DNA of 64,000 nucleotides, taken from Thelephora terrestris. Its lineage: Eukaryota; Basidiomycota; Agaricomycetes; Thelephorales; Thelephoraceae. The notes beneath the pieces were generated by a model. The model had not been told where the DNA came from and searched no databases. It was given only the letters and a program-made list of their open reading frames with translations. The stretch covers positions 62,001 through 126,000 of the forward strand of contig WIUZ02000004.1 in NCBI GenBank assembly GCA_015956445.1, given 5' to 3'. Both the position numbers and the translations under genes were made by a program. Below are positions 9,522 to 26,095 of this stretch, piece by piece. Within the stretch, counting starts at the first letter, position 1; each line of letters opens with the position of its first letter.

Positions 9522-12500
9522 ATGCTAAGACACGTCAACATCTCAAGGTCCCCATCTGGCCTCATCTGGAGGACCCTCGGCCCACTTCGTTCGTACCATG
9601 ACGAATCCTTCGGGTTCCGAAAACCTCGGACGTTCACCCACCCTGACTGTGAGTCCCTCTCCAATCCCCCTGGAACTGGCGATATCATACCTAAACTCGG
9701 GAACCAGATAACGAGAAACAGTTACAGAATCGCGTCGAGAACGCTCCATTGTTACAATACGTCGAGGCCTTCCGGACCTTCGGTCATGCAGCTGCGAAGA
9801 TCGACCCGCTCGAGCTACTCCGTCGAGAACGTGTCCCCGCTTTGGATCCCGCACGTTATAACCTTACGGACCTCAGCAAGGAGTACAATGTAAACGGGAT
9901 CATCTGGACCAAACCCGTTGAATCGAACCAAGACCAAGACGAGTGGTGGACGCTTTCCAAGATAACTCAGCACCTTCACGCGACCTACGTCGGAGGGCTA
10001 GCATACGAGTTCAATCATTCTTCTTCCCACGCAGAGGCACTCTGGTTCGCCCATTACCTCGAGTCGAGGAAATGCGATGATCAGTGCGAGCTTCCACCAG
10101 AGAGGAAGAAACGCATCCACGATTTGCTTGCAAGGAGCGAATCCTTTGATCACTTCATGCAGGCAAAGTTCCCCAATTTGAAGAGGTATGGGTTGGAAGG
10201 TGGTGAATCGTTATTGCCTGCCTTGGATACGCTGTTCTCTGTTGCTGCCCAAAGTTCGTCACCTTGTATAATACGCCTAACATCCCTCTCAAACCTTCTT
10301 AGCCGGCATCCGGAACATCGTGTTGGGTAGCGCTCATCGTGGAAGGTTGAACATTCTCACCGAACTACTCGAATATTCCCATACCGCGCTTTTCCACAAG
10401 ATCAAGGGAAACTGTGAGTTCCCAGCGAACTTGGAGGTTTCCGGGGACGCGGTAAGCCACTTGGGTGGGTGTTTGGGCTTCGCTGGACGTCCTTATTGAA
10501 GATCTCACATGATGAGATGTAGTTGCCTCGCCTTGCCTACACTACGAAGGGTCCTCGGAACCGATCAAGGTTTCGCTCCTACCGAACCCCTCCCATCTAG
10601 GTTAGTTTGCATACTGTACGCCACAGCGTAGTTTGAACTCTCACAAACAGAGGCGGTGAATCCCGTGGCCCTCGGCAAGACCAGAGCGAAACAATACTCG
10701 CTCTTGAGGACGTCTCCCGAAGACTGCAAACTCGGCGATAGGGTCATGTGTGTGCAGCTCCACGGGGACGCTTCGTTCGCTGGTCAGGGTGTCATTATGG
10801 AAAGCCTCGGACTGAGCAACCTTCCTCACTACACCACCGGTGGGACCGTCCATATTGTGGTCAAGTAAGCCCTCGTAGTGTCAACCCGAAACCCGGGATG
10901 GGTACTTACCCCGCTCCGCCCCCAGTAACAGGTGGGGCTCGTAGGGAACCCCCTGAATGCTCACTAAACCTAGACGTCTAGCATCGGCTACACAACCCCA
11001 GCTGCAGGTGCTCGATCATCGCTCTACAGTTCGGACATTGGCAAGATGATCAACGCGCCAGTGCTTCATGTCAACGGCGATCATTCGGAAGGTGAAAACC
11101 CCTAAAGCTAAAAGTCTCTTTTGCTGATCACCGCTAACGCCATCGCGGGTTAACTATAACACCATCATACTCGTCGCTCAGATGTCGCTCGGGCGGTCGA
11201 GGCAGCATTTGCGTACAGGAATCATTTCAGGAAGGATGTGATCGTGGATTTGATCGTGTATCGCCGTTGGTCAGTGGTTTCAGACATTGTCCTGTGCTTC
11301 CGTTTTCCAGCTAAAGCCTGGATCTGCATAGGGGACACAACGAACTGGATGAGCCAGCATTCACTCAACCGCTTATGTACTCGAAGATCCGGTCCCGGAG
11401 GTCTGTTCCAGAGTTATATGAGGATCAACTAGTTGTGAGTCTGCAGTATCCCATCACGAAGTCATGACACGAGGGAATAATCCCCTTGTTCCCGTTCTCC
11501 CAAGGCCGATAATATCATGACCGTGGAGGAGATAGCCGAGGTTCGCAAGGTCCATAGAGCGCTGCTTGAAGAAAAGCTTGCGGCTGTCCCGTCTTTCCAA
11601 CCTACCGTTCCAACCCCCAACGGCCTATGGTCTACGATGGTTTGGCCCGCTAGTGAGAAAGCCGAGAAGAACCCTGAGACCGGTGTAAACGAACAAACCC
11701 TCAGGGATGTCGGAAAAGCTAGTGTCACGATATCATCTGAAGGCTTCGTGGGGTTTCTCTCTCGATCACCTTGCCCGCAGCATCCTCATATGATCGCGAC
11801 TTAGGAAATCCATCCTCGTTTGAAACGCCACGTCAACGCCCGTTTGGAGAAGATCGAAGCCGGAAGTGGCCTCGATTGGGCCACCGCAGAAGCCATGGCA
11901 TTTGGATCTCTCATGTTGGAGGGCTATGATGTCAGGATATCCGGACAAGACGTAGGAAGGGGGACTTTCTCGCAAAGGTGCGCAGAGGAGTGGAGATTCC
12001 TGATATCAGGAGGCTCATTACCTGCGAAGGCACGCGATGTTTGTCAGCCAACAGGATGAATCTGTCATCGTTCCCTTGAATACCGAGCTGCAGTGCGACG
12101 CGAAGCTGGAGCTTGCGAATAGTTCTCTGAGCGAATTTGCTGTTATGGGCGTGAGTCATTGCTCGTGTTGTTGAAGAGGCTGGTGTGGCTTACGTGCGAA
12201 ATTGGTAGTTCGAGTATGGCATCAGTTGGGAGCGCCCGACCATTCTACCTATCTGGGAAGCGCAGGTAAAGGTTATGCGTCAAGGGCACGAACGGCTTCT
12301 GACTCTTTCCACTTCACAGTTCGGAGACTTCTTCAATGGTGCGCAAGTGATCATCGACACTTTTATCTCCTCAGCCGAGAGTAAGTTCAGCATCCTCGAC
12401 TTCGCCGACCCTGCGTGCTCAATAGAGGATTCGTAGCGAAATGGCTTCGTCAGAGCGGTATCGTGCTACTCCTTCCCCACGGTCTAGATGGCGCGGGTCC

Positions 12501-13274
12501 GGAACATTCTTCTTCCCGCTTGGAGCGGATGTTACAGGTGGGGATACCGTTGACCGATGGATCGTTGGTGCTGACTGTGATACCCCCGTAGTTATCGAAC
12601 GACCGATATAGTCCCAATCAGGAAGAGCCGAACATCAATATGCACATCACTTTCCCGACGACGCCTGCCCAATATTTCCATTTGTTGAGAAGGCAGATGA
12701 AGAGGAACTATCGGAAACCACTTGTAGCCGCGTCCCCGAAAGGGTTGCTTCGCTTGCCGGTGCGTCACTTCTCCCCGTGTTTTGACCATTTTTTAGTCTC
12801 TGATTCCGGAAGGCTGCAATATCCTCGCTCGAGGAAATGGCTCCCAACACCCGGTTCCGACCCGTCCTAGACGACCCTATCGCCGACACATCCAAGGTCG
12901 ATCGCGTAGTCCTCCTCACCGGAAAACTTTACTACGACCTCGTCAAAGAACGTCAAATCCGCAACCTGTCTGACAGAGTCGCGTTCGTCCGTCTCGAAGA
13001 ACTATCGCCGTTCCCCTTCGACGAACTCCACGCCGCACTGAAGCGGTACACGAAAGCTAGGCAGATCTTATGGGTGCAAGAAGAACCTAAGAACCAAGGA
13101 GCGTTTACGTACATCGAGCCAAGAGTGAACAATCTGTTGGCCGAGGGGCTGAAGACGAAGTTCAGGATCGGCTACAGAGGGAGAGATGAGGATGCTGTTC
13201 CTGCGACTGGGACGGGAGTTGTGTACAAGGCTCAGCAGGAGAAGGTCTTGAAGTCTGCTTTCGAAGGACTTTGA
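9522..13274 (+). CDS. 2-oxoadipate/2-oxoglutarate dehydrogenase E1, DHTKD1 type
   Basis: Thiamine-diphosphate enzyme that decarboxylates 2-oxoadipate (and 2-oxoglutarate) in mitochondria, in lysine and tryptophan breakdown. The ATG at 9522 gives a basic, hydroxylated presequence ([17 protein letters not shown]), followed by [15 protein letters not shown]. Conserved blocks in order are [95 protein letters not shown], then [24 protein letters not shown] and [13 protein letters not shown]. The C-terminus has [16 protein letters not shown] and [17 protein letters not shown]. At least 12 introns occur. One exon is only six bases (TAACAG, 10926-10931), and supplies the second Asn of the GD...NN cofactor motif. 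The lack of the longer OGDH N-terminus favours DHTKD1 over Kgd1. The stop is at 13272-13274. Confidence 0.9.
10926..10931 (+). other. Six-base microexon in the DHTKD1-like gene
   Basis: The preceding exon ends ...GTC AA at 10864 and the next begins at 10982 with C ATC GGC TAC. Direct joining gives VVNIGYTT, which lacks a residue pair found in all OGDH-type E1 enzymes. Inserting TAACAG, which is flanked by an upstream CCCAG acceptor and a downstream GTGGGG donor, gives VVNNSIGYTT and restores the NN of the thiamine-diphosphate/Mg motif. Both flanking introns are 50-61 bases long. Confidence 0.7.
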
Positions 13275-13939
13275 CGGCCGTCGAAAAACGATGGCAGGTG
13301 AAATCACGAAGAGAACGAAGCTGGCTTCCACTCTGCCGCGCGTGGAACGATCATACCACAAGGTCGACGCCATTTTCGATAATATTCAAGACATATATTT
13401 GACAGACGATGTACAACAAAGACGTGGAGTTTGGATTTGATGTTTGTGTTACAGTTTCTTCAGCTTCAATTGCCGAATCCAAGGCGGCATGCTTAAGTGC
13501 CTCTGGAGAAGGAGTGACCAATTACTCCCTTTCGTCTGTGGAGGGCAAAAAGGAATTATTTGATGGATCCCCAGCTTGCTACTGAACCAAAAGTTTTTCG
13601 CCCCGTAGGACTGCCGGACCACGGAAAGCTCAAGGGCAAGTGTTCGAGCAGACATGCGCGCCCAGAAAGTCATGAAAACAGCTCCGTTGCTTTGGGGTCA
13701 CAGGATGGTATTGTAAGTATCGAAGAGAGATCGACATGCAGGGATAAATGTCAATAAGTCATGAGGTGCTGTGCGCTTGTGGTATAAGCTCCATTGAAAG
13801 TGGAGGTTGGCGTGACGGTATGATATAAAGTGTCCTTGGGCGAAAAATGGCATATGCATAGATAACAAATTGCATGGGTGGTAAAACTCGTGGGTTCAAT
13901 GCTGCAGTGGAGTGCGAATTGGAGAAGTCGAGTTGAATG
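13275..13939. other. 3' flank shared with the other metacaspase units
   Basis: This lies between the DHTKD1-like gene and metacaspase A (convergent). From about 13500 it is recognisably like 17130-17584 and 20690-21020, for instance GAAAGCTCAAGGGCAAGT at 13625 and again at 20734, and GGCATATGCATAGA near 13850 and 20930. It therefore belongs to the triplicated segment. A minus-strand frame of 74 codons (13449-13673) has weakly similar counterparts in the other units, but no family is recognised. Confidence 0.55.
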
Positions 13940-15814
13940 TTAGAGCACGACGATTCGGTCCATGTCCTGTGGAAAGGCGGTCAGATGAGGGTAAGGTGAG
14001 GATAAACTGCCTCCAAGACATACGAGTGGCGTTATGCTTCCGAGCTGGAGATCCTGGAAGTTATCCATCTCGAGTCCTGTGTCCTCCTTGACAACCGTGT
14101 CCTCGTAGATCCCGTGCTTTCGATCAGCTTCACGACGATCATGCTCTCGATGAGCGGCGCCGTGCATCTTCGTCGTAAACGAGTGAACATCGTAGCTATT
14201 GAACGGGGGAGTAGACCCTCAGAACCGTCTCGATCGGCTTCCAGGTGAACTTACTTAAGACTCGTCATCAGCTGAGAGTAGGTTAATCGTGGGTTCTTTT
14301 CTGATACGGTGTGTCTAGCGGGTGCGTAAATTTGGAAAGGTGAGATGACCACTCACTCAGAATATCAACCAAATACTGTGAGATCAGGTGTGAGTGATCG
14401 TCGAGACAGCCAGAAGACAGTATAGACGCACTGTTGTCATTGAGAGGCTATCCCCATCGCGTGTGCTTGCATCCCAAGAAATTTGACCGTCGCCGGACGA
14501 CGAGATGGATATCTACCAGAGCCATGGGGGTAAGGTGTAGATTATATGGTTTGGAACCCAACACACCACGTCAGCATGTGGAAGAGCCCCCGAGGTTGGT
14601 TCCATCCGACTGCGACACCACCCATCACATTCAAACAAACGTTCCGGTGATGTACAGCTTCTCCCCTGGAGCAAGCTGGTGTCTTCACCCACTGAAGACG
14701 AGCTCTCCATCGTCTGTACGGCCAAATCGAGACTGAAGAATCTGCCGCCACTTCCCACCGAGGAGCGGGGAAGGCTTAGAGACCGATTAAAAGTGCCCCT
14801 GCAGTTCCTCCTTACTATGTAGGCAGGTACCAGGGAATGAGCGGTTGCGTGCGATGGGACTACGATGGCGACGTACCGTTCCAATTCTGAAGGGTCCTGC
14901 TTCTGCGTGGCCCCTTATTGACCCACGGCCGACATACATTGTTGCAATTGTGATGAGGAAGGTCTGCCTAAAAGTCAGGAACAGCGTGCGTGGGTGTGTA
15001 CAAGAAGACATTACCCAACAGAGTGCCAGAGTGACAACAATCAAAAATCGCAGTGAGGGCCGAACCTTGAGGAAGAGGATCCACCAAACACTCGTGGAGA
15101 TCCTGAATGCGAAGGTCAATAATGCTGTGCTGCAAGGGTTTGTGAGACGCAAGAGACTAACATTGTCCCTAATCTTGGCTCCGTTTGATGCGATGAGGGC
15201 TGGGATGACAGAGGGCTCAATGCCAGATGCAGATGAAATGGTTGAGCAAACTCACCCTCGTCCAAACCGTCTTCTTCGGTGCCCGTCCTGCAGGGCAACT
15301 GGCCAGAATGACCGCTGACTAATTGAGGGGATAGTGTCAGTGTCGATGGTGGTGAGTACGGGGAGGGGGGCGCGTACAGTAGAAGATGCGGCGATTCCCC
15401 GGTTCCGCCCTACGGCACAAACCTCTAATTTCGCGCATCTAGAGGAAATTAAGGTTAGGGTACGAGGATGTTTGGTCCAATCAAGGGAACGGGCGAACTA
15501 AATTGTCCTCCGTTGGTTGCAACCGCTCCTCGGTTCCATCTTCGTCAGTCATCACTGTAATGTCGGCGTCGGCATAGTCCCAATGGTCTAGAAGACACGA
15601 AAGGCCCGTCTGAGTTACGAGTACAGTGGACTGAGAGGAATAATTCACCTTGAATGAATTCTTTGAACTTCTTGACGTTTGGGATAGATGTGGGGATTGG
15701 ATCCAAGACCGCCTGGCCGTTTCCTTCTACTCCGTTGGGATAACCGATCCCAACGAGTAAAGCCTTCTTTTTCGTAGAGCGCCCGCGGGTGGTTGCGCTA
15801 TATTCAACAGTCAT
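13940..15814 (-). CDS. Type I metacaspase, tandem copy A
   Basis: Caspase-like cysteine peptidase (family C14B) that cuts after Arg/Lys; fungal members act in stress responses, protein-aggregate clearance and cell death. The ATG at 15814 begins MTVEYSATTRGRSTKKKALL, so the long Pro/Gln-rich prodomain of most type I metacaspases is absent. Exons give VLDPIPTSIPNVKKFKEFIQ, DADITVMTDEDGTEERL, IREIRGLCRR context, then IFYFSGHSGQLPC with the catalytic His (15302-15316). Next are EEDGLDEALIASNGAKIRDN and SALTAIFDCCHSGTLLGN with the catalytic Cys, the second Cys of DCCHSG (15025-15042). The p10 part has SPERLFECDGWCRSRM, GCLDDHSHLISQYLVDILS and MDNFQDLQLGSITPLV. About ten introns all keep frame and both catalytic residues are present, so the gene looks intact. 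The stop is at 13940-13942. Confidence 0.87.
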
Positions 15815-15910
15815 TATCAAGAGGCAGACCGTGGGAGAGCGGCAGATAATAGAGGGGGGAAGGAGAAGGAGAAGGGGAGAAGTTGGTCAGAGTAGACTCT
15901 CCACCACCCG

Positions 15911-15920
15911 GATTATATAC
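15911..15920 (-). promoter_or_regulatory. TATA box of metacaspase A
   Basis: On the minus strand this reads GTATATAATC within a CCxCCCGG context, about 97 bases upstream of the ATG. The same box sits at nearly the same distance in copies B and C, which supports it as the core promoter. Confidence 0.6.
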
Positions 15921-17130
15921 CGGTTAGTGCACAATGGCGGTGTAAACCCATAGTACCGGCGTGGACGTTGCAGGCAGTCGAACGTATCATGTGGGATGAG
16001 ATTGAGAACGCTGACCACTGAATCGATGAAAGACCAGAACAGGTTTTTGCGGCGGTAATCATGAGTTACAAAATGGAGTACGACTACAGAAGCTGTGCGA
16101 AATGGTCAGATGAGACACAAGGGTGGATCTTTCCACCAGAAAACACGCCTCTCCCTGCAGCTTTGGGCTACGATCATACCTGTGAATTCGTGAGTCCGAG
16201 ATCCACGGATTTTTATGTTGCTCAGCCAAGCAAACCCCTATTTCAGCTTGCGGTCGATCCAGGGTGGAAGCATTTCAGGCTGGCCACATCCAAAGCACGG
16301 GGGCAAGGTGGTCAGACAGAGCCACGTTGGTTTGTGACAGATCGTTTTGTCTTGGCAGATTTTAGGAAACCAATTAACGCCCCAAAGTGAAGGTGACTGC
16401 AGATACCTGTTCACTTCCTTCTTCGGCTCAGGACAAAACCACTTGACTCTTGGCGTGGTGCACAAAACGGACATTGGATCTCCAACGAGACAACGACCAG
16501 CACACCCAGAAACCAGTCTCGACCTCGGCAATATCGATCGAAAGTTAGCCCCGAGTATGTAGCATCAGCCACACGCAATCTCAATATCCAACACTTTTTC
16601 CATGAGGCTGTGCCGCACGTGTCAAGGACAAAAGCTCTCCTTGTGAATATGTAGCCAAGGTGTCCGCCACACGATCGATGGACAGAAGGATGGATCCTGT
16701 GTCACATCCAATTTAAGGCGGGTCTCCCTTCTTGACGGACTATTCCTGGGACTGCCGGAACACGTGTAGGATACTGGCAGTGCTCTTCCGTTTTCAGCGC
16801 TGAGACCATAGAATGCTGGAGGGGTAAGAAAGGCATCGCCTCGAGGCGACCGAAGCACCGTGCGAGCAGTCGTGCGTGGCAATGTTTTGCGTTGGGTGAA
16901 TGGCCGTGAACACTGAAAAGGCGTCCTCACACTATACTTAGCAGTAATGTGGGTTATCCGGGATCTGAACAAATACCGCTGTGCGACTCATCTTTTTGTA
17001 CCGCGGAGCTCGAGAGAAGTACGGGGTGCGGTTGATACGCTTCCGAGTCGCTGTGTTATGATGTCCGCGTGCAAAGAATAACCATACCGTATCTCAATGT
17101 GCCCATGAGCATTGGCTTCGCCAGGCTCAG
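15921..17130. pseudogene. Decayed upstream segment of unit A
   Basis: This is 1.2 kb upstream of metacaspase A. It aligns by eye with 19500-20690 and 22961-24080, yet its open frames (109 codons plus at 16061, 97 minus at 16238, 116 minus at 16622) do not correspond between copies. Fragments such as the minus-strand EPKKEVN recur in A and B. It may be the remains of a second gene that was duplicated with the metacaspase, or simply intergenic DNA. No family is recognised. Confidence 0.4.
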
Positions 17131-17584
17131 ACCGCCGATGTCTTCGCCAATCGATCCAAATCCTGGAAAGCCCCAGGCGATACAAAGGTCGAACATCGAA
17201 CGGTCAGGGTTATGAAAACAGCAGACATGATGGTTTTTCGAAGAGATAGAGATGTGTTGGTTGTCGTAATCGCATATTCACTCATGGACGTTGGATCGAT
17301 AGTGAGGGCCGCCGGACCGTGCGAGGCTTGAGGCGAGCATCTCGGCCGACACACGGAAACGCACAAAGTCATAAAACCGGCTCAGCCACATCAAAGAAGT
17401 AGTATGTCAAAGATAACACAGATAGTTTAGACGTTTGAAACTGGAAATTAGTGCGGTGCTACGATATAAGACATCCGGGGGTGATAAATGCCATATTCAT
17501 AAATGATAAACTGTTTGGGTGAGTGGTATAACCTTGGGACATCGTCACGCTAACGCGTGCGTATAAGGGGAGTCGAGTCGAACT
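17131..17584. other. 3' flank of metacaspase B
   Basis: This is the counterpart of 13500-13939 and 20690-21020. It shares TAAGACATCC/TGTCCTTGG-type and ATGCCATATTCATAAATG-type stretches with those regions. It holds no recognised gene and should include the transcript end of copy B. Confidence 0.45.
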
Positions 17585-19395
17585 TCAAAGCTCGAAAATC
17601 CGGCCCATGTCCTTCCAAAAGCGGTCAGCCGAGGCAAATGTCAGGTCGGGATATTCAAGACGTACGAGCGGCGACAGACTTCCTAGCTGGAGGTCCTGGA
17701 AGTTATCCATCTCGTACTCATCTTCAGGTTTTGTACCCTCAGCTCTATGAACACGTCTCTTTTCCCGATAGTACCTATGCATATCCATCGTATACGAGTG
17801 AACTTTATGGCTATAAAAACGGTGAGAAAATCCCTCAGAGAATCGTTTCAATGGAGTCGTCTTACTTGAGACGCGTCATCAGCTGAGCGTAAGTTATTTG
17901 TGGGCGTTGTTCCGACGAGGTACGTTCTACGGGTATGTCGATCCATGGAGGAGAAACAGAGCCATTAAGGATCTCGATTAAAGACTGCAGAACGGATCGT
18001 GAGTGATAGTGGCGGGAGGCCCGGCAGCCATGATCAACGCACACTCGTCATTGATACGACGTCTCCGTTTCGCGTTACGTCCCAAGAAATCTGATGGTCG
18101 TTAGATGACGAAATAGATATCTACCGAAGCCGATTCAGTAAAAACCAGGGATATCGAATACTCTGAAACCCGACACACCACTTCAGCGTGTTGGGACTCC
18201 TTCCTTTGCTTTCTGTCGCGGCACCACCCATCGCAAAACTGGCGCTCTGGCGACATACACCTTTGTTCGGTGTACGTGTTGAGATCCCCATCCGATAGGG
18301 GTATCTCGCTATGCATGAACCCGAAGATGCTTGGAGAAGGAAGATCGCCTTCGCCGCTCCCCATCCTAGAGCGGGGTTGGTCTAAGGCCTTAGGACGGGT
18401 GACCATCCCGTCCCTTCTGACTGTACACGCGAGGGAGTCAGTGGGCAAGCAATGGATGCACGGTGCCAACGCACCGACGGTGTTACAACGGCTTTTGCTG
18501 TTGCGTTTTCCCTTATTGACCCAAGGGTAATAGACGGAGTTGCACCTGTAATGTCCAAGATCTGCCCAGGTGTAAGTGACGAACAGATAGCAGATCCATA
18601 GGGGGAAGACGTCACCAAGCATGGTACCAGAGTGACAAGAGTCGACAATTGCGGTGAGCGTGGATCCTATGGGAAGGTTCTTCACCAAAATATTGTGTAG
18701 CATCTGAATCGGGGGGTCAAAACTCCCGTATTGGAAGGGTAGGTGTGACACGAAACACTGACATTGTCCCTGATCTTGAACCCGTCGACTGAGATGAGGG
18801 CTAGCATGGCAGAGGGTTCGATACGTAGACATATGAGAGGTTTGGGGATACTCACTCTCGTCCAGATCATCTTCTTCGCTACCCGTCTGGCAAGGTAACT
18901 GGTCAGAATGACCGGCATCTAATCAAGGGGTATTGTATTAGTGGTGGATGCGGGGATGGGAAGGCGCATACAATAGAAAACGCGACGATCCCCTGTGTTC
19001 ACCCCGCGACGTAAGGCTTTCAATTCGCGTTCCTAGAGGATGATATCGTTAGGACACGCTGTCATTTTGCACCTTTGGGGGAAGGGACAAACCAGATTGG
19101 CCTTTGTTGGTCGCAATCTCTCCTCGACTTCAGCCTCGTCAGTCATCACAGTGATGTCGGTATACCCCCAACGTTCTAGCATTGAGGGACTGGGTGAGTC
19201 GTGCATATAGTGAGCTGAGAGAAAGAGTTTACCTTGAATGAAATTCTTGAACATCTCGACGTTTTGGGTAGATGTAGGGATGGGATCCAACACATAGCCG
19301 TCTACCTGTGTTCCGTCGGTATAACTAATCCCCACGAGTAAAGCCTTCTTTGTGGTAGAGGGCTCGCGAGTGGTTTCGATGTAATCAACAGTCAT
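17585..19395 (-). CDS. Type I metacaspase, tandem copy B
   Basis: Second metacaspase. The ATG at 19395 gives MTVDYIETTREPSTTKKALL; an in-frame upstream ATG at 19461 exists, but the paralogues support this one. Exons yield YVLDPIPTSTQNVEMFKNF, YTDITVMTDEAEVEERL, LKALRRGVNTGDRRVFYYAG with GHSDQLPC (catalytic His, 18902-18916), EEDDLDETLISVDGFKIRDN and LTAIVDSCHSGTMLGD (catalytic Cys, 18626-18643). Then come LGHYRCNSVYYPWVNKGKR, SPERQFCDGWCRDRKQ and MDNFQDLQLGSLSPLV near the end. DSCHSG is the classical caspase/metacaspase signature, while A and C read DCC. All introns used (for example GTATGCG...ATTAG inside the His exon join) keep frame. The prodomain is missing as in A and C. It lies head to tail with A and C on the minus strand, and a paralogue-specific role is possible but unproven. 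Confidence 0.87.
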
Positions 19396-19488
19396 CTTCA
19401 AGAAAATTGTAGAAGCACGGCGGGTGTAAGAGGAGGGAAGGGGGAGGCGGATCCTGGTCAAAGTATGGCTATGCTGTCACCGCCCGGG

Positions 19489-19499
19489 TTATATACTGT
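19489..19499 (-). promoter_or_regulatory. TATA box of metacaspase B
   Basis: On the minus strand this is CAGTATATAAC, directly after GACCCCGAACGTCC and next to CCGCCCGGGTT. It lies about 95 bases from the ATG and is near-identical in context to copy C. Confidence 0.62.
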
Positions 19500-20690
19500 T
19501 GACCCCGAACGTCCTAGTTTTTCGAGGTGGAAGCCCCGGGCATTTGCGAGCGGAGTAAGAACCTGCACTGGTGCATGATGTGGACTGAAGTACTGGGGAC
19601 GTGTCGACTTCAACGTCGAGACTTTTGCGAGGATGAGATGGAAACGCGGAACACTGAATCGATCACAATGGCCCAACGCCGGGTTTTTACAGCGATAAGC
19701 GGATGCGCAGGCACAACTCGGAAGATGTGCGGAACGGCCAAATGAGACGTGGATAAACTACTGGGCGAAAGTTCCGTTCGAAAATACGCCTCTGTTTATC
19801 CGTGGGTTCAAGGTCCACAGATTTTCGATGTTTCCTTCTTCAAAGCGTTCTTCACAGCATTTCATTTCGTGATCGACCCATACGGGGCGGTTGTGAAAAC
19901 GTTTCGCCGTGGATCGACTCGCCTTTGCGGATTCTTGGAAACCAACAAACGTCCTTGGTTTCGGTGAATGTAACTATGGATACCCGTTCACTTCTTTCTT
20001 CGGCTCAGCCTCAGCGTCGACAAAGCCAGCTTGAGCCTTGGCACCATGCAAGGCGAGGACGTTGCATCTCGAACGTAACAACGGAGCGAGAGGCAACATC
20101 AAGCATATGAATCGACCACACGCGATGCGCATACCCCATATCGAAAATCCCTGGCAGGATTCCACAAGGCTGTGCAGCGCACCTCGAGAACGCACCTCTC
20201 CTTGTAAATAGCCAAGCGTGGCGTCGGCTGCGCGGGTGACGAGTGAAAACCCCGGTTCCTATGTCACATTAATTCGAATCAGGGCGGCCTTTTCAACAAA
20301 GCGTTGCGAGGACTGTCGAACCGCGTGTAGGGCCCTGTCAGTGCCTTTTCAGTGCTCAGTGATGAGGCATGGAACGTAGTCAAACAGATAAGAAAGGCGC
20401 TGATGCATCGCGCGAGTCATTGTACAGGGCCTAGAAGTAATGTGGGTCGACGGGGATCCGAGTCCTGGGTAGGCATCGGTCTTTACTCGTTCTGTAAGGT
20501 GTGCGCAGCAGCATTGGCGACTCTGGTGCCCGCATCAACCGATTCAAACCCACAAAAACTCCAGGAGGTTCAAAATTCGAACGATGAGTGCGCGTCGTGG
20601 AAGCGGGAGCCACGGAAGTCGGCGTAATTGTTCGTAGGGGAGGCGAACATAGAGGTTTTATTGGAGAATCCGTAATCTCATGGTCGTCAG
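19500..20690. pseudogene. Decayed upstream segment of unit B
   Basis: This matches 15921-17130 and 22961-24080. On the minus strand a frame reads GYLQGEVRSRGALHSL; unit C has GYSQGKVCSRHALHGL in the equivalent place, which suggests a coding past. The frames then diverge and no complete gene remains. No family is recognised. Confidence 0.4.
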
Positions 20691-21020
20691 ATATCGATCA
20701 AGAGAGCACTTCGTCCGGATCGCCAGATCGCGAGAAGCTCAAGGGCAAGTATTTGGGCCGACATGATGATGCACTCCAAGAAGTCACGAAAGCAGCTCAG
20801 TTGCGGTGGGGTTACAGGTTGGTGTCGTAATATACAGGGATGAATATAGATAAGTTAGAGGTATATGCTCCATCGAAACTGGAGATTAACGTGATAGTAT
20901 ATGATAGAAAGCGTCCTTGGGACATAGACGGCATATGCATAGACGACAAGCTTCATGGGTAGTTTAAGTTGGGGGTATCGTTTCGCCGGAGAGTACTCGT
21001 AGGCAGAGTCGAGTTGAGTG
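20691..21020. other. 3' flank of metacaspase C
   Basis: This is the counterpart of the flanks at 13500-13939 and 17131-17584. The stretch TGTCCTTGG then GGCATATGCATAGACGACAA is close to the copy near 13830-13870. No gene is recognised. Confidence 0.45.
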
Positions 21021-22874
21021 TCAAAGCATGAAAATGCGGTCCATGTCCTGTCGCAAAGCGGCCAAATCAGAAAAAGGTGAGAGTAAATCGTGCTCAGGAC
21101 GTACGAGTGGCGTGATACTTCCTAGCTGGAGATCTTGGAAGTTATCCATCTCCCCCTTGTCCTCTTCAGGTGCTACTGCGTTCTTGAAACTTGGGTTCTT
21201 TCTATCAGCTTCACGACGGTCACGCCTCTGTTGCCGAACTACGCTGTGCATCCCCCTCGTAAATGAGTAAACCTTGTGACTATAAAAATCCTTCAGAGCC
21301 GTCTCGATCGACTTGCAAGAGGGCCTTACTTGAGACTCGTCATCAACTGAGAGTAGGTTAATTGCGGGTCTTTTGCTGTAAGGCGTGTTCAGCGGGTTTA
21401 AAATTTGAAAAGGTGAGAGGAAGACATACTAAGGATATCAATCAAAAACTGTGGAATTGGGTGTAAGCGATCATCGAGACAGCCAGGAGCTAGTACAGAC
21501 GCACAGTTGTCATTGAGAGGCTACCACCATCGCGTGTACTTGCGTCGTAAGAGATTTGACCGTCGCCGGACGACGAGATGGATATCTACCGAAGCCATAA
21601 TGGTCAGTTTGCGAGTAGAGGTACGGTTTGGAACTCAACGCACCACGTCAGCATGCGGAAGAGCCCCTATTGTTTGCATCCGCTTGCGACACCACCCATC
21701 ACACTCAAACATGCGTTCCGGCGATGCACACCTTCCCCCGAGGTGCTTGCCGGTGGCTTCATCTGATAGAGGTGCGCGGGCTTGACGGCTCTCCATCGCC
21801 CGTACGACCTGGGTAAGGCTGGGGAATTGGTCGCCACTCCCTATCGAGGACCCAAAAAAAGAGCCCCTGCAGTTCTTTCTCACTGTGCATGCAGGACTTT
21901 AGGACACGAGCAGGTGCACGGGACGGGCGTATGGCAGCGACGCACCATTGTAGTTACAGAGTGATCTGCTGCTGCGTATTCCTTTATTGACCCACGGCCG
22001 ATATACGTTGTTACATTTGAAATGGGGAAGATCTGCCTAGAAATAAGCAATAGTAGATGGCGGATATATCTCGAGTAGACATTACCCAGCAGAGTACCGG
22101 AGTTACAACAATCAAAGATCGCAGTGAGTGCCGAACGTTTTGGAAGGTCCTTCACCAACCACTCGTGGAGGTCCTGAATGGGAGGGTTAACGCTGTGCTG
22201 TAAGGGTCTGTGTAACTCAAGGGACCAACATTGTCCTTGATCTCCAATCCGTCGAGTGGAACGAGGGCTGGCGAGACAGAAGGTTCAATACACGTAGAGA
22301 TATGAGAGGGTTCGAGGCACTCACTCTCGTCCAATCCATCTTCTTCGCTGCCCGACCTGCAAATTGACTGGCTGGAATGACCAGTAACTGATTGGAAGGG
22401 GTGGTATCAGTGTCGTTGGTGAGTGCGGGGGATGGGAAGGCTCATACAATAGAAAATAAGACGGTCTCCTGGTTTCACTCCGCGACGTAAAGCTTCAATT
22501 TGGTGTTTCTGGAGGAAGTCGCCGTTAGAATACGTGAACGTTTGATGCGATTGAGGGAAAGGACGAACAAGGTTGGCTCTTGTTGGTTGCAATCTCTCTT
22601 CAACTCCATCCTCGTCGGTCATTACAGTAATTTCGGCATCAGCATACCCCCGATGTCCTGGAAAGCATGGAGAAACTGCGTGAGTTACGAATACAGTGGT
22701 CAGAGAGGGACCCTCACCTTGGAGGAAATCCTTGAACTTCTTGACGTTTGGGATAGACGTCGGGAGGCGTCCCCACTCTTGACCGCCCCAATTCCGATAA
22801 CTGATCCCAACGAGCAAAGCCCTCTTGGTTGTAGGGCGGCGGCGGATGGTTGCGTTGTAGTTATTGGTCATCAT
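21021..22874 (-). CDS. Type I metacaspase, tandem copy C, altered Cys motif
   Basis: Third metacaspase. Two consecutive ATGs (22874, 22871) open MMTNNYNATIRRRPTTKRAL, followed by LPTSIPNVKKFKDFLQ, ADAEITVMTDEDGVEERL, KHQIEALRRGVKPGDRLIFY and FTGHSSQ (catalytic His, 22371-22385). Then EEDGLDETLVPLDGLEIKDN, LHEWLVKDLPKRSALTAIFD and the Cys motif DCCNSG (22096-22113). The catalytic Cys is kept, but the His that normally follows it is Asn. Later blocks are SPERMFECDGWCRKRM, ILS plus LTYSQLMTSLK-type sequence, and MDNFQDLQLGSITPLV with the end ...RIFML. The gene is otherwise complete, lacks a prodomain and shares its promoter layout with A and B. Whether the Asn change alters activity is unknown. 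Confidence 0.86.
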
Positions 22875-22950
22875 TGAGAAGGAGACCGGAAGGGCCACAG
22901 GTGTCGGAGGGGGGAGGGGGATGTTAGTCAAAGTTAGCTCTCCACCGCCC

Positions 22951-22962
22951 GGGTTATATGCT
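22951..22962 (-). promoter_or_regulatory. TATA box of metacaspase C
   Basis: On the minus strand AGCATATAACCC, next to CGGGCGG, about 79 bases upstream of the first ATG. It is conserved in context with copy B. Confidence 0.58.
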
Positions 22963-24080
22963 GTTGACCCCCAACGTCCTAGTTGCTCGAACGGGGATTC
23001 CTAGCACGTGCGAGCGACGATAAGAGCCCGCACTGGTACACGATTGTGGCATATTCGGTTTAAGAGTGAGTGCATGGTGGCGGTGTTGTTAATGGAACGC
23101 GTGTGGAGGGTGCGGACGGTTGAACAAACCGCGTGGGTGAATCGATCGCAAGGCTGGGGGGGAGTTTTTGCAGCGACAAGGACGAGAATACAACTACAAC
23201 TGCAGAAGCCAAAATGAATGGAGAGACGTCAGTAAACTACCAGATGGACCACCCACCAGAAGATGCGCCCCCCTGCAGCTTTGTGGTATAGCCATTCCTG
23301 TGCATCCATGAGTCTAAGATCCACAGATTTTCCACAGTACTCGGCTCAAAAACCTCTAAAGCGTCCGTCATTGCGTTTCACTTTGCGGTTTTCGGTCGAT
23401 GCAGGGCGGACGCATTCATAGTTGGCCACAGCCATTTGGTGACGTTCCGCTACGGATCAAATTGCCTTGGTGGATTTCCGGAAACCAACAATCGTCCCAT
23501 AGCTTAGGTCAAGCTACCTGTTCACTTCTCTCTTCGGCTCAGTCTCAGGACAAGCCACTCGAGGCTAGGCACAAGGAAGATGGTGGATTTCGAACGTAGC
23601 AATAACAGGTGTATCTGACAATCAGCTGTCTCAGTCTCAACAATGCCGGCGTTGAAGGAACGTTAAGTGTATGCATCGACCGCATGCAATGTTGATGCTC
23701 ATCACCTGGAGTCCCATAAGGCCGTGCAGGGCATGTCTAGAACACACCTTTCCTTGTGAATAGCCAAGCAAGGCGCCAGCCACGCGAGTGACGGACAGGA
23801 AAAACGAAGTCTCTGGCGGTGCTTTTCCAGCGGTGAAACATGGGATTTTGGAGTGGCCAGAAGGGAATTTTCGCGCGAGCCATCGTACTTGGAAATGTCG
23901 ATGAATGGCGACAGAGCGCCCTCTCGACCGAGGAAGAAACGTGGGTCGACGGGGACCCAAGGCCCGGGTAATTTCTCTGCGCAACTCATCTCATTGTGTC
24001 CCAGAGAGAACTACGGGGCGCGGTAGTTACGCTTCGCCGCACTTTTATGTCCGCGCACGAATTCGAAGAAAAGCTACCGT
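22963..24080. pseudogene. Decayed upstream segment of unit C
   Basis: Third copy of the 1.1-kb segment, upstream of metacaspase C. Minus-strand frames of 115 and 95 codons (23637-23989) do not match the frames of the other units over their length. CTCATCT...GAGAGAA.TACGGGG.GCGGT near 23985 is shared with unit A near 16985. It ends near the promoter of the SAM synthetase gene. Confidence 0.4.
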
Positions 24081-24603
24081 GTAGGCACCTCGGATGAACG
24101 TGACCGAACATCCGGCAGTCAGCTGGATGTGCTTCCCTCCTCATCGCTGTTTCGACGGCCGTCCGTCATATTCGCAAGGATTACGCCGACCCTGGGTTCA
24201 CCGTACGATCCTTGCACACACTTTTCTTTTCTTTTCTTTTCTATGGGGCCGGCAACCCTCTGCCGACTTTTGACTCCACCCGTAATTCCACGCGCCCAGT
24301 TCCGTCCCCATGATATGAAACAGATTTGCTTTAGACTTTTGCACACCAGACTCGATAGACAAACACGTAGCGTGAACTCGGAATTTCTTGCAAAAGTGCC
24401 TCAGAGTGATCGAGTGCTCTGGACGCGCCGACGCGGGGCCAAGGCGGGTTGCATTTCCTACGAACGCGAACTGGGGTAGATGGCGTGACAATTAGGTAAG
24501 CCTACTCAAGACCTCACCACAGTCCTGTCTCACAAAAAGGCTCGAGTACTGCGTCAGTTCTTCAAAAATACCCTCCTCCTCTTACTTACAACCTACTCAC
24601 AAA
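24081..24603. promoter_or_regulatory. Upstream region of the SAM synthetase gene
   Basis: This non-duplicated stretch follows the tandem array. It carries a pyrimidine microsatellite at 24221-24240, and a C/T-rich run just before the ATG (ATACCCTCCTCCTCTTACTT), typical of strongly expressed fungal genes. No coding sequence is recognised. Confidence 0.5.
24221..24240 (+). repeat. (CTTTT)4 microsatellite
   Basis: Four perfect CTTTT units, preceded by CACA and followed by CTATGG. It sits about 360 bases upstream of the SAM synthetase ATG. Confidence 0.9.
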
Positions 24604-26095
24604 ATGACTTCCAACGGCAGCGCTCTCACTCGCCCACCTCTCGCCACTGGCCACTTCCTCTTCACCTCAGAGTCTGTTGGTGAAGGTCATCCAGACAAGA
24701 TCTGCGATCAAGTCTCTGACGCTATTGTGCGTATCTCCGGTCATCTCTCCACGCCAATCACTCTGATAAACCAATCTTGTGCAGCTCGATGCCTGCTTGG
24801 AGCAGGACCCGTTCTCCAAGGTCGCCTGTGAGACCGCTACTAAGACCGGTATGATCATGGTCTTTGGTGAAATCTCCACCAAGGCCCAAATCGACTACCA
24901 AAAGGTCATCCGAGAAACCATCAAAGAAATCGGCTACGACGATTCCGAAAAGGGTTTTGACTACAAGACTTGCAATATTCTCGTCGCGATTGAACAGCAA
25001 TCTCCTGATATCGCTCAGGGTCTTGACCACGGTTCCCTCGAGGGCCTTGGCGCTGGTGATCAGGGTCTGATGTTCGGATACGCCACCTCCGAGACCCCAG
25101 AATTGATGCCGCTTACCATCGTTCTCGCCCACAAATTGAACAAGGCCCTCTCCGTGGCCCGCCGGACCGGTGCCCTTCCCTGGCTTCGCCCAGACACCAA
25201 GACCCAGGTCACTATTGAGTATAAGCGCGATGGTGGTGCAGTCATCCCCCTTCGAGTTGACACCGTCGTCGTCTCGACCCAACATTCCGACGATATCACC
25301 ACCGAAGGACTGAGGGAGGAAATATTGGAAAAGATCGTCAAACAAGTCATCCCTGCAGACCTTCGAGACGAGCACACCGTTTACCACGTTAGTAACCGGC
25401 CCTCTCTACCGGAACGCTGACCCTCATGCGATCCCAAAAGATTCAACCATCAGGGCGGTTCGTTATTGGCGGACCCCAGGGTGATGCCGGTTTGACCGGT
25501 CGCAAGATAATCGTCGACACTTACGGTGGATGGGGCGCACACGGCGGTGGCGCCTTCTCTGGCAAGGATTTCTCGAAAGTTGATAGGTCCGCCGCATATA
25601 CCGCTCGTTGGATCGGTGAGCTGAATTCATTGGCGTTTTTTTATTTATTAAACGACTGATCGGTCTTGACTGCAATCATTAGCTAAATCACTCGTCGCCG
25701 CGGGCCTTGCTCAGCGAGTTCTTGTTCAGCTCTCCTATGCTATCGGTGTTGCTGAGCCACTTTCCATCTTCGTTGATTCTTATGGCACCGGAAAGAGGAC
25801 CGACGAGGAGCTTGTCGAGGTAGTTCGCAGTAACTTTGATCTCCGACCTGGTGTGATTGGTATGTTTCGTGACAAAGCATGCGTTATCGCCATTTTCTCA
25901 ACGCGTGTTTTACCCCTCAGTTCGCCAGCTTGATCTGCAGAAGCCCGTGTACCGTAAGACTGCTTCGTACGGTCACTTCGGTATGTTTCCCTTGCCATCC
26001 TTTTCTCGCATCGAAAGACGGGAATTAACCCAAAACTACCCATGTTAGGAAACCCCGAATACACGTGGGAGAAGCCCAAGCAGCTCGTGCTCTAA
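24604..26095 (+). CDS. S-adenosylmethionine synthetase
   Basis: Makes S-adenosylmethionine from methionine and ATP in the cytosol. The ATG at 24604 is followed by [20 protein letters not shown], the universal N-terminal ATP/methionine motif. Further blocks are [99 protein letters not shown], the P-loop-like [29 protein letters not shown] and the end [19 protein letters not shown]. Five introns: the first, 24727-24782, cuts after DAI; the others lie near 25387-25441, 25615-25680, 25858-25919 and 25980-26047. It is full length compared with the family (about 390-400 residues). Gene order with inositol oxygenase downstream on the same strand does not suggest a shared function. Confidence 0.97.

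Follow-up and report, generated by a model that had tools for sequence, protein, structure and literature searches.

A 64,000-nucleotide stretch of the Thelephora terrestris genome (GenBank assembly GCA_015956445.1, contig WIUZ02000004.1, positions 62,001 to 126,000 of the forward strand; "the window" below) carries three metacaspase-like genes, here called A, B, and C, arranged head to tail on the minus strand (Table 1). Tandem expansion alone is ordinary; the point of interest is a change shared by all three predicted proteins in the S1 pocket of the peptidase.

Three head-to-tail minus-strand units of about 3.5 kb had been proposed from a sequence-only reading of this DNA, and self-blastn (query 12001-26000 against the whole window, E up to 1e-4) bears this out: all 12 matches in the array are on the same strand, and the in-register spacing between copies is 3464-3611 bases. 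The parallel diagonals expected in a dot plot are found for all three units, although only A and C give a single long one (13613-15918 vs. 20722-22959, 70%, E 0.0); those for A-B and B-C are broken into patches, the longest pieces being 15004-15869 vs. 18605-19447 (E 1e-99) and 18496-19583 vs. 21967-23049 (E 7e-128), respectively. Homology extends into the spacers, up to about 16685, 20241, and 23798. With head-to-tail parallel diagonals and shared flanks, the locus qualifies as a tandem gene array.

Splice sites were picked by hand from the alignment of the three copies and with a view to open frames, which makes the open reading frames partly a product of that choice. None of the three spliced models has an internal stop or frameshift. 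Their introns are 50-63 nucleotides (nt) long and all GT-AG, and all three proteins match Peptidase_C14 (PF00656) above its cut-off, at 59.5-69.0 bits. Together with ratios of nonsynonymous to synonymous substitution (dN/dS, or omega) below 1, discussed below, this agrees with the earlier claim of three intact genes. The same reading had intron positions identical in all three, which holds for every intron but one: B has lost the donor as well as the acceptor of intron 10, which A and C retain, and the three-copy alignment places 18 extra in-frame codons there, inside exon 17984-17866 (minus strand). This is apparently intron sequence turned into exon, visible through comparison with the paralogues. 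The last intron of B has an AAG end. Two motifs are common to A, B, and C, with no role assigned: C-x-SPER-x-F-(E)-CDGWCR in the linker (exon 8), and EMDNFQDLQLGS near the C-terminus.

Each promoter has a TATA element followed by CCGGG(T/C)GGTG. The block had been described as conserved, and is indeed kept in all three, 85-105 nt before the ATG, with C reading CATATAA rather than TATATAA. Also as described, the models have no prodomain: the caspase core starts almost at once (ALLVGI at residue 18, 18, and 19 in A, B, and C), and neither a Pro-rich stretch nor a zinc finger, the N-terminal features of type I metacaspases, is found before it in any of them.

Residues of the active site and its surroundings were compared with those of seven metacaspases, four of them solved chains and three from the same genome. 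Catalytic His109/106/106 (A/B/C), in GHS, and Cys162/159/159, in DCCHSG, DSCHSG, and DCCNSG, are present as the sequence-only reading had them; the residue after the Cys is His in A and B and Asn in C. A profile match and a His-Cys dyad in all three place them in family C14. In Trypanosoma brucei MCA2 the S1 residues are Cys92, Asp95, Ser156, and Asp211, termed a potential pocket (PMC4357240; papers given by PMC number are cited here from excerpts). The equivalent of Asp211, the second S1 aspartate, is kept in all three copies, but that of Asp95 is Asn in all three and Asp in all seven comparators, leaving the pocket without its acidic pair. Presumably the Asp95 position is the counterpart of the P1-binding Arg of caspases. 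The Cys92 equivalent is likewise changed, to Ser in all three copies (Cys in 7/7 comparators), and the Ser156 equivalent, Ser in 7/7 comparators, reads Ser, Ala, and Thr in A, B, and C, respectively. HMMER alignments place the ND of yeast Mca1 opposite PN in C, with the same pairing in A; the assignment for B comes from the multiple alignment, at a place where gap placement varies in the HMMER alignments.

More distant sequences were read at the Asp95 position as well. Among 376 pattern matches in viral contigs there were five distant relatives, used solely for reading the S1 motif; at the four of these loci that span the position the Asp is kept (by eye), though the four are near-identical to each other. 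None of 73 pattern matches in bacterial and archaeal genome contigs was confirmed as a relative. Both the calcium-site aspartates and those of the predicted P1 pocket have been termed invariant (PMC9820594). No mention of an S1-pocket change of this kind was found among the papers listed, in part for broader questions, which is weak evidence of absence.

Most of the calcium site is preserved. The calcium ligands of the Candida glabrata enzyme are listed as Gly196, Asp198, Asp214, Thr242, and Asp245 (PMC9622860); the equivalents of the three Asp and the Thr are present in all three copies, and that of Gly196 in A and C but not in B. Equivalents of the calcium-binding aspartates Asp173, Asp189, and Asp220 are kept in all three.

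Among solved structures, the array proteins match yeast Mca1 (4f6o) and C. glabrata metacaspase-1 (7qp0) best, with E values of 4e-28 to 9e-21. These have the same dyad and calcium ligands as the array proteins (B lacking the Gly196 equivalent), and their p10 part is matched by a second, weak stretch of the latter, but they are prodomain-bearing type I enzymes with Asp and Cys at the S1 positions. T. brucei MCA2 (4afr) shares the core, the His, and Asp211; its printed chain reads D-C-A, taken as Cys213Ala, hence D-C-C like copies A and C. It differs in retaining Cys92, Asp95, and Asp190, and in having an N-terminal region thought to be a gatekeeper (PMC4357240). Arabidopsis metacaspase-4 (6w8s) belongs to type II, which has no prodomain and a longer linker (PMC9820594); the array models likewise show no prodomain. 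Type II also carries an insertion of its own, about 70 residues long (PMC4357240), and metacaspase-4 keeps the ND motif and aligned with array proteins over its p20 part alone in the two alignments printed. Finally, the metacaspase RS107_6 of the basidiomycete Rhizoctonia solani, at 301 amino acids (aa), is too short for a long prodomain, judging from length, but unlike the array proteins keeps ND, in the peptide GCINDSNNLCEFLVR (PMC10143347).

Whether the three should be called type I, as first proposed, is less clear than their family. Type I metacaspases are described as proteins that "can contain" N-terminal motifs (PMC5756287), and prodomain-less type I forms have been counted in bacteria, archaea, and phytoplankton (PMC9820594), so that some authors allow for no prodomain; the best-scoring chains are also type I. 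Against the label are the missing prodomain of the models and, less clearly, the 113-116 residues that separate the catalytic Cys from the p10 part in the array (78 in yeast Mca1). Relative to 4f6o the p20-p10 linker has 35-38 extra residues, fewer than the roughly 70 of type II.

The genome searched (40.6 Mb in 60 contigs, with the array on C34) carries at least six C14 genes: the trio and one canonical metacaspase each at 1.30 Mb on C34, on C12, and on C59. Agaricomycetes appear often to carry several metacaspases. Most fungi are reported to have one or two such genes (PMC13208671). The canonical genes have the C14 p20 core in common with the array, but differ from it in a Pro/Gln-rich stretch before the core (3/3, in raw translation, by eye), with a C-x-x-C motif there in one of the three, and in keeping ND (3/3). 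Given that stretch, and on these models, the array genes are the only ones without a prodomain among the C14 genes found in this genome. The C59 copy apparently has CHSSS rather than CHSGS after the catalytic Cys (exon reading). One further place, L002 (C9:310256-313477), has a PF00656 match over profile positions 149-223 at 23.5 bits (cut-off 21.4), in a long open frame. No further array-type member was found in the genome with gene A DNA or the three array proteins as queries; their matches outside the array were the canonical C12 gene and a place on C1 (30% identity, E 0.04) taken as chance. These counts are lower bounds, and the PF00656 family search misses the array itself (short exons), as it could other intron-rich members.

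Table 1. Coordinates of the array genes, units, and promoter elements, of the flanking exons, and of the canonical metacaspase genes of the same genome (positions are those of the window unless a contig is given).
Feature	Position	Strand	Details
Metacaspase-like gene A	13940..15814	-	394 aa, DCCHSG; hand-made spliced model; Pfam PF00656 E 5e-16
Gene A, 13 exons	15814-15649, 15587-15499, 15438-15378, 15318-15256, 15199-15162, 15102-15015, 14963-14877, 14814-14567, 14512-14432, 14375-14357, 14300-14255, 14195-14024, 13966-13940	-	
Metacaspase-like gene B	17585..19395	-	12 exons, 397 aa, DSCHSG; hand-made spliced model; Pfam PF00656 E 4e-17
Metacaspase-like gene C	21021..22874	-	13 exons, 389 aa, DCCNSG; hand-made spliced model; Pfam PF00656 E 6e-19
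Unit A (gene and upstream spacer homology)	13613..16685	-	self-blastn; approximate boundaries
Unit B	17435..20241	-	self-blastn; approximate boundaries, patchy matches
Unit C	20722..23798	-	self-blastn; approximate boundaries
TATATAA of copy A	15913..15919	-	105 nt before ATG
TATATAA of copy B	19489..19495	-	100 nt before ATG
CATATAA of copy C	22954..22960	-	ATATAA part 85 nt before ATG
Flank: 2-oxoglutarate dehydrogenase C-terminal exon	12804..13274	+	Pfam PF16870 E 4.5e-50
Flank: S-adenosylmethionine synthetase exon	24770..25420	+	Pfam PF02772 E 9e-44, PF00438 E 2e-27
Canonical metacaspase L001	C34:1302346-1305627		
Canonical metacaspase L026/L029	C12:1.653 Mb		
Canonical metacaspase L028	C59:1.153 Mb		

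Between the genes, upstream spacer patches (16133-16685, 19899-20241, and 23253-23798) are 67-80% alike between units by self-blastn, and may be upstream control elements or gene relics. Pfam searches with five open reading frames from the spacers, chosen by us among those present, returned nothing at E up to 1, and Rfam gave no match in the window at the gathering threshold.

The array is old. Protein identity is 56% for A-B, 66% for A-C, and 56% for B-C, intron identity between copies is 60-68%, and synonymous divergence (dS) among the three pairs is 0.80-0.95 by the Nei-Gojobori method (NG86); a recent triplication is ruled out by the dS and the protein identities. The comparison of dN/dS between copies suggested in the sequence-only reading gives 0.376 (0.28-0.50) for A-B, 0.275 (0.19-0.39) for A-C, and 0.384 (0.28-0.53) for B-C (NG86, own script, intervals from 400 bootstraps), all below 1 even at the upper limits; Biopython NG86 and YN00 over the whole length give 0.28-0.39. 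On average the copies are under purifying selection, and the pairwise values are compatible with relaxation on one branch.

Which two copies are most alike depends on the position in the array. Two copies match each other but not the third at 826 sites: A-C at 364, B-C at 272, and A-B at 190. In 16 scan windows of 50 such sites each, which omit the last 26, the most frequent pair is B-C in the upstream and promoter region (two scan windows), A-B in exon 1 (one), near-even (one), B-C, mildly, at about exons 3-4 (three), and A-C from there on (nine), a heterogeneity reached by none of 5000 shuffles. Recombination or conversion between copies is suggested as the best account of this changing closest pair. 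Because the pair changes along the alignment, the duplication order that identity would give (A with C) is not trusted.

Putting these observations together, the reading we lean toward, with confidence somewhat short of even, is that of an old tandem array of three functional, prodomain-less C14 peptidases, which would be calcium-dependent and have an altered P1 preference. The enzymes would be switched on by calcium and, having no prodomain, would be neither held back nor targeted through one. One acidic S1 residue fewer would leave the preference for Arg/Lys at P1 less strict, or allow a neutral P1 to be accepted. From the residues present, calcium activation and catalysis look possible, while strict Arg/Lys preference looks weakened. 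Probably the pocket was altered before the gene was triplicated, although spread of the change by conversion is conceivable, and the copies would since have been kept by selection and partly mixed. The longer p20-p10 linker may, at a guess, take part in activation. That the paralogues might have different targets, as proposed earlier, receives indirect support from the S1-pocket changes, including the Ser, Ala, or Thr at the Ser156 position. Different triggers, also proposed there, are conjecture. A bolder form of this account, which we consider doubtful, would have a fungal branch in which Arg/Lys specificity was given up: three calcium-switched peptidases, free of prodomain control, whose cleavage preferences would be new and would differ from copy to copy, the Asp95 to Asn and Cys92 to Ser changes having arisen before triplication and the Ser156 position varying among the copies.

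Several points weigh against the altered-preference account. The equivalent of Asp190 is Asn in all three copies and Asp in all seven comparators; in the samarium structure of the T. brucei enzyme Asp190 serves as a ligand, but it lies outside the ligand list of the C. glabrata calcium structure (PMC9622860). Losing a residue that reportedly matters for substrate binding and/or activity (PMC4357240) could just as well abolish activity. The three same-genome comparators are hand-joined exon pieces, and in the viral-contig relatives, too, Cys92 is replaced, by Pro. The comparators are solved chains and genes of the same genome, and Asn at the Asp95 position may be common in Agaricomycetes. Regional rate differences could contribute to the mosaic of closest pairs, or mimic it. 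As to the linker, type I auto-processing is said never to occur between p20 and p10 (PMC5756287); contrary to this, Yca1 is described as processed in the linker (PMC9820594).

Alternatively, the three may be ordinary Arg/Lys-specific metacaspases, duplicated in tandem and with roles in stress or cell death under slightly different circumstances, the pocket change being tolerated and having no effect on P1. In favor of this, the array proteins keep the dyad, Asp211, and most of the calcium ligands, and fungal metacaspases have been linked to stress and cell death (PMC9820594, PMC13208671). Drift in the S1 pocket also has a precedent, since two S1 positions are variable among archaeal metacaspases (PMC9820594). 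It is harder to square with an Asp95 equivalent that is replaced in all three copies but kept in all seven comparators, including the three canonical paralogues of this genome, and we regard it as possible but on balance unlikely.

It is also conceivable, though we think it improbable, that these are pseudo-proteases or weak proteases, serving as binding partners or decoys that regulate the canonical prodomain metacaspases of the genome. The residue changes would all fit (Cys92, Asp95, and Asp190 in all three copies, Ser156 in two of them, B and C, and, in C, the position following the catalytic Cys), and purifying selection also fits a scaffold role. Pseudo-proteases usually lose one catalytic residue, however, and here both are kept in all three. 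Decaying or non-expressed duplicates are very improbable: B has lost the splice sites of one intron and has another ending in AAG, but the lost intron is in frame and open, no model has a stop or frameshift (with hand-picked splice sites), the TATA block is kept in all three, and omega is well below 1 in every pair, the intact models and omega together ruling out a pseudogene reading.

Metacaspases as a family are generally associated with stress or cell death. What separates them from caspases is a preference for Arg/Lys, attributed to acidic S1 residues (PMC4357240). Should Asn at the Asp95 position prove usual in Agaricomycetes, the change described here would be an ordinary lineage feature. 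With the dyad and most of the calcium site in place but one pocket Asp fewer, the trio would allow a test of which pocket residue sets specificity, and of whether it is in targets, rather than in dose, that fungal metacaspase families diversify.

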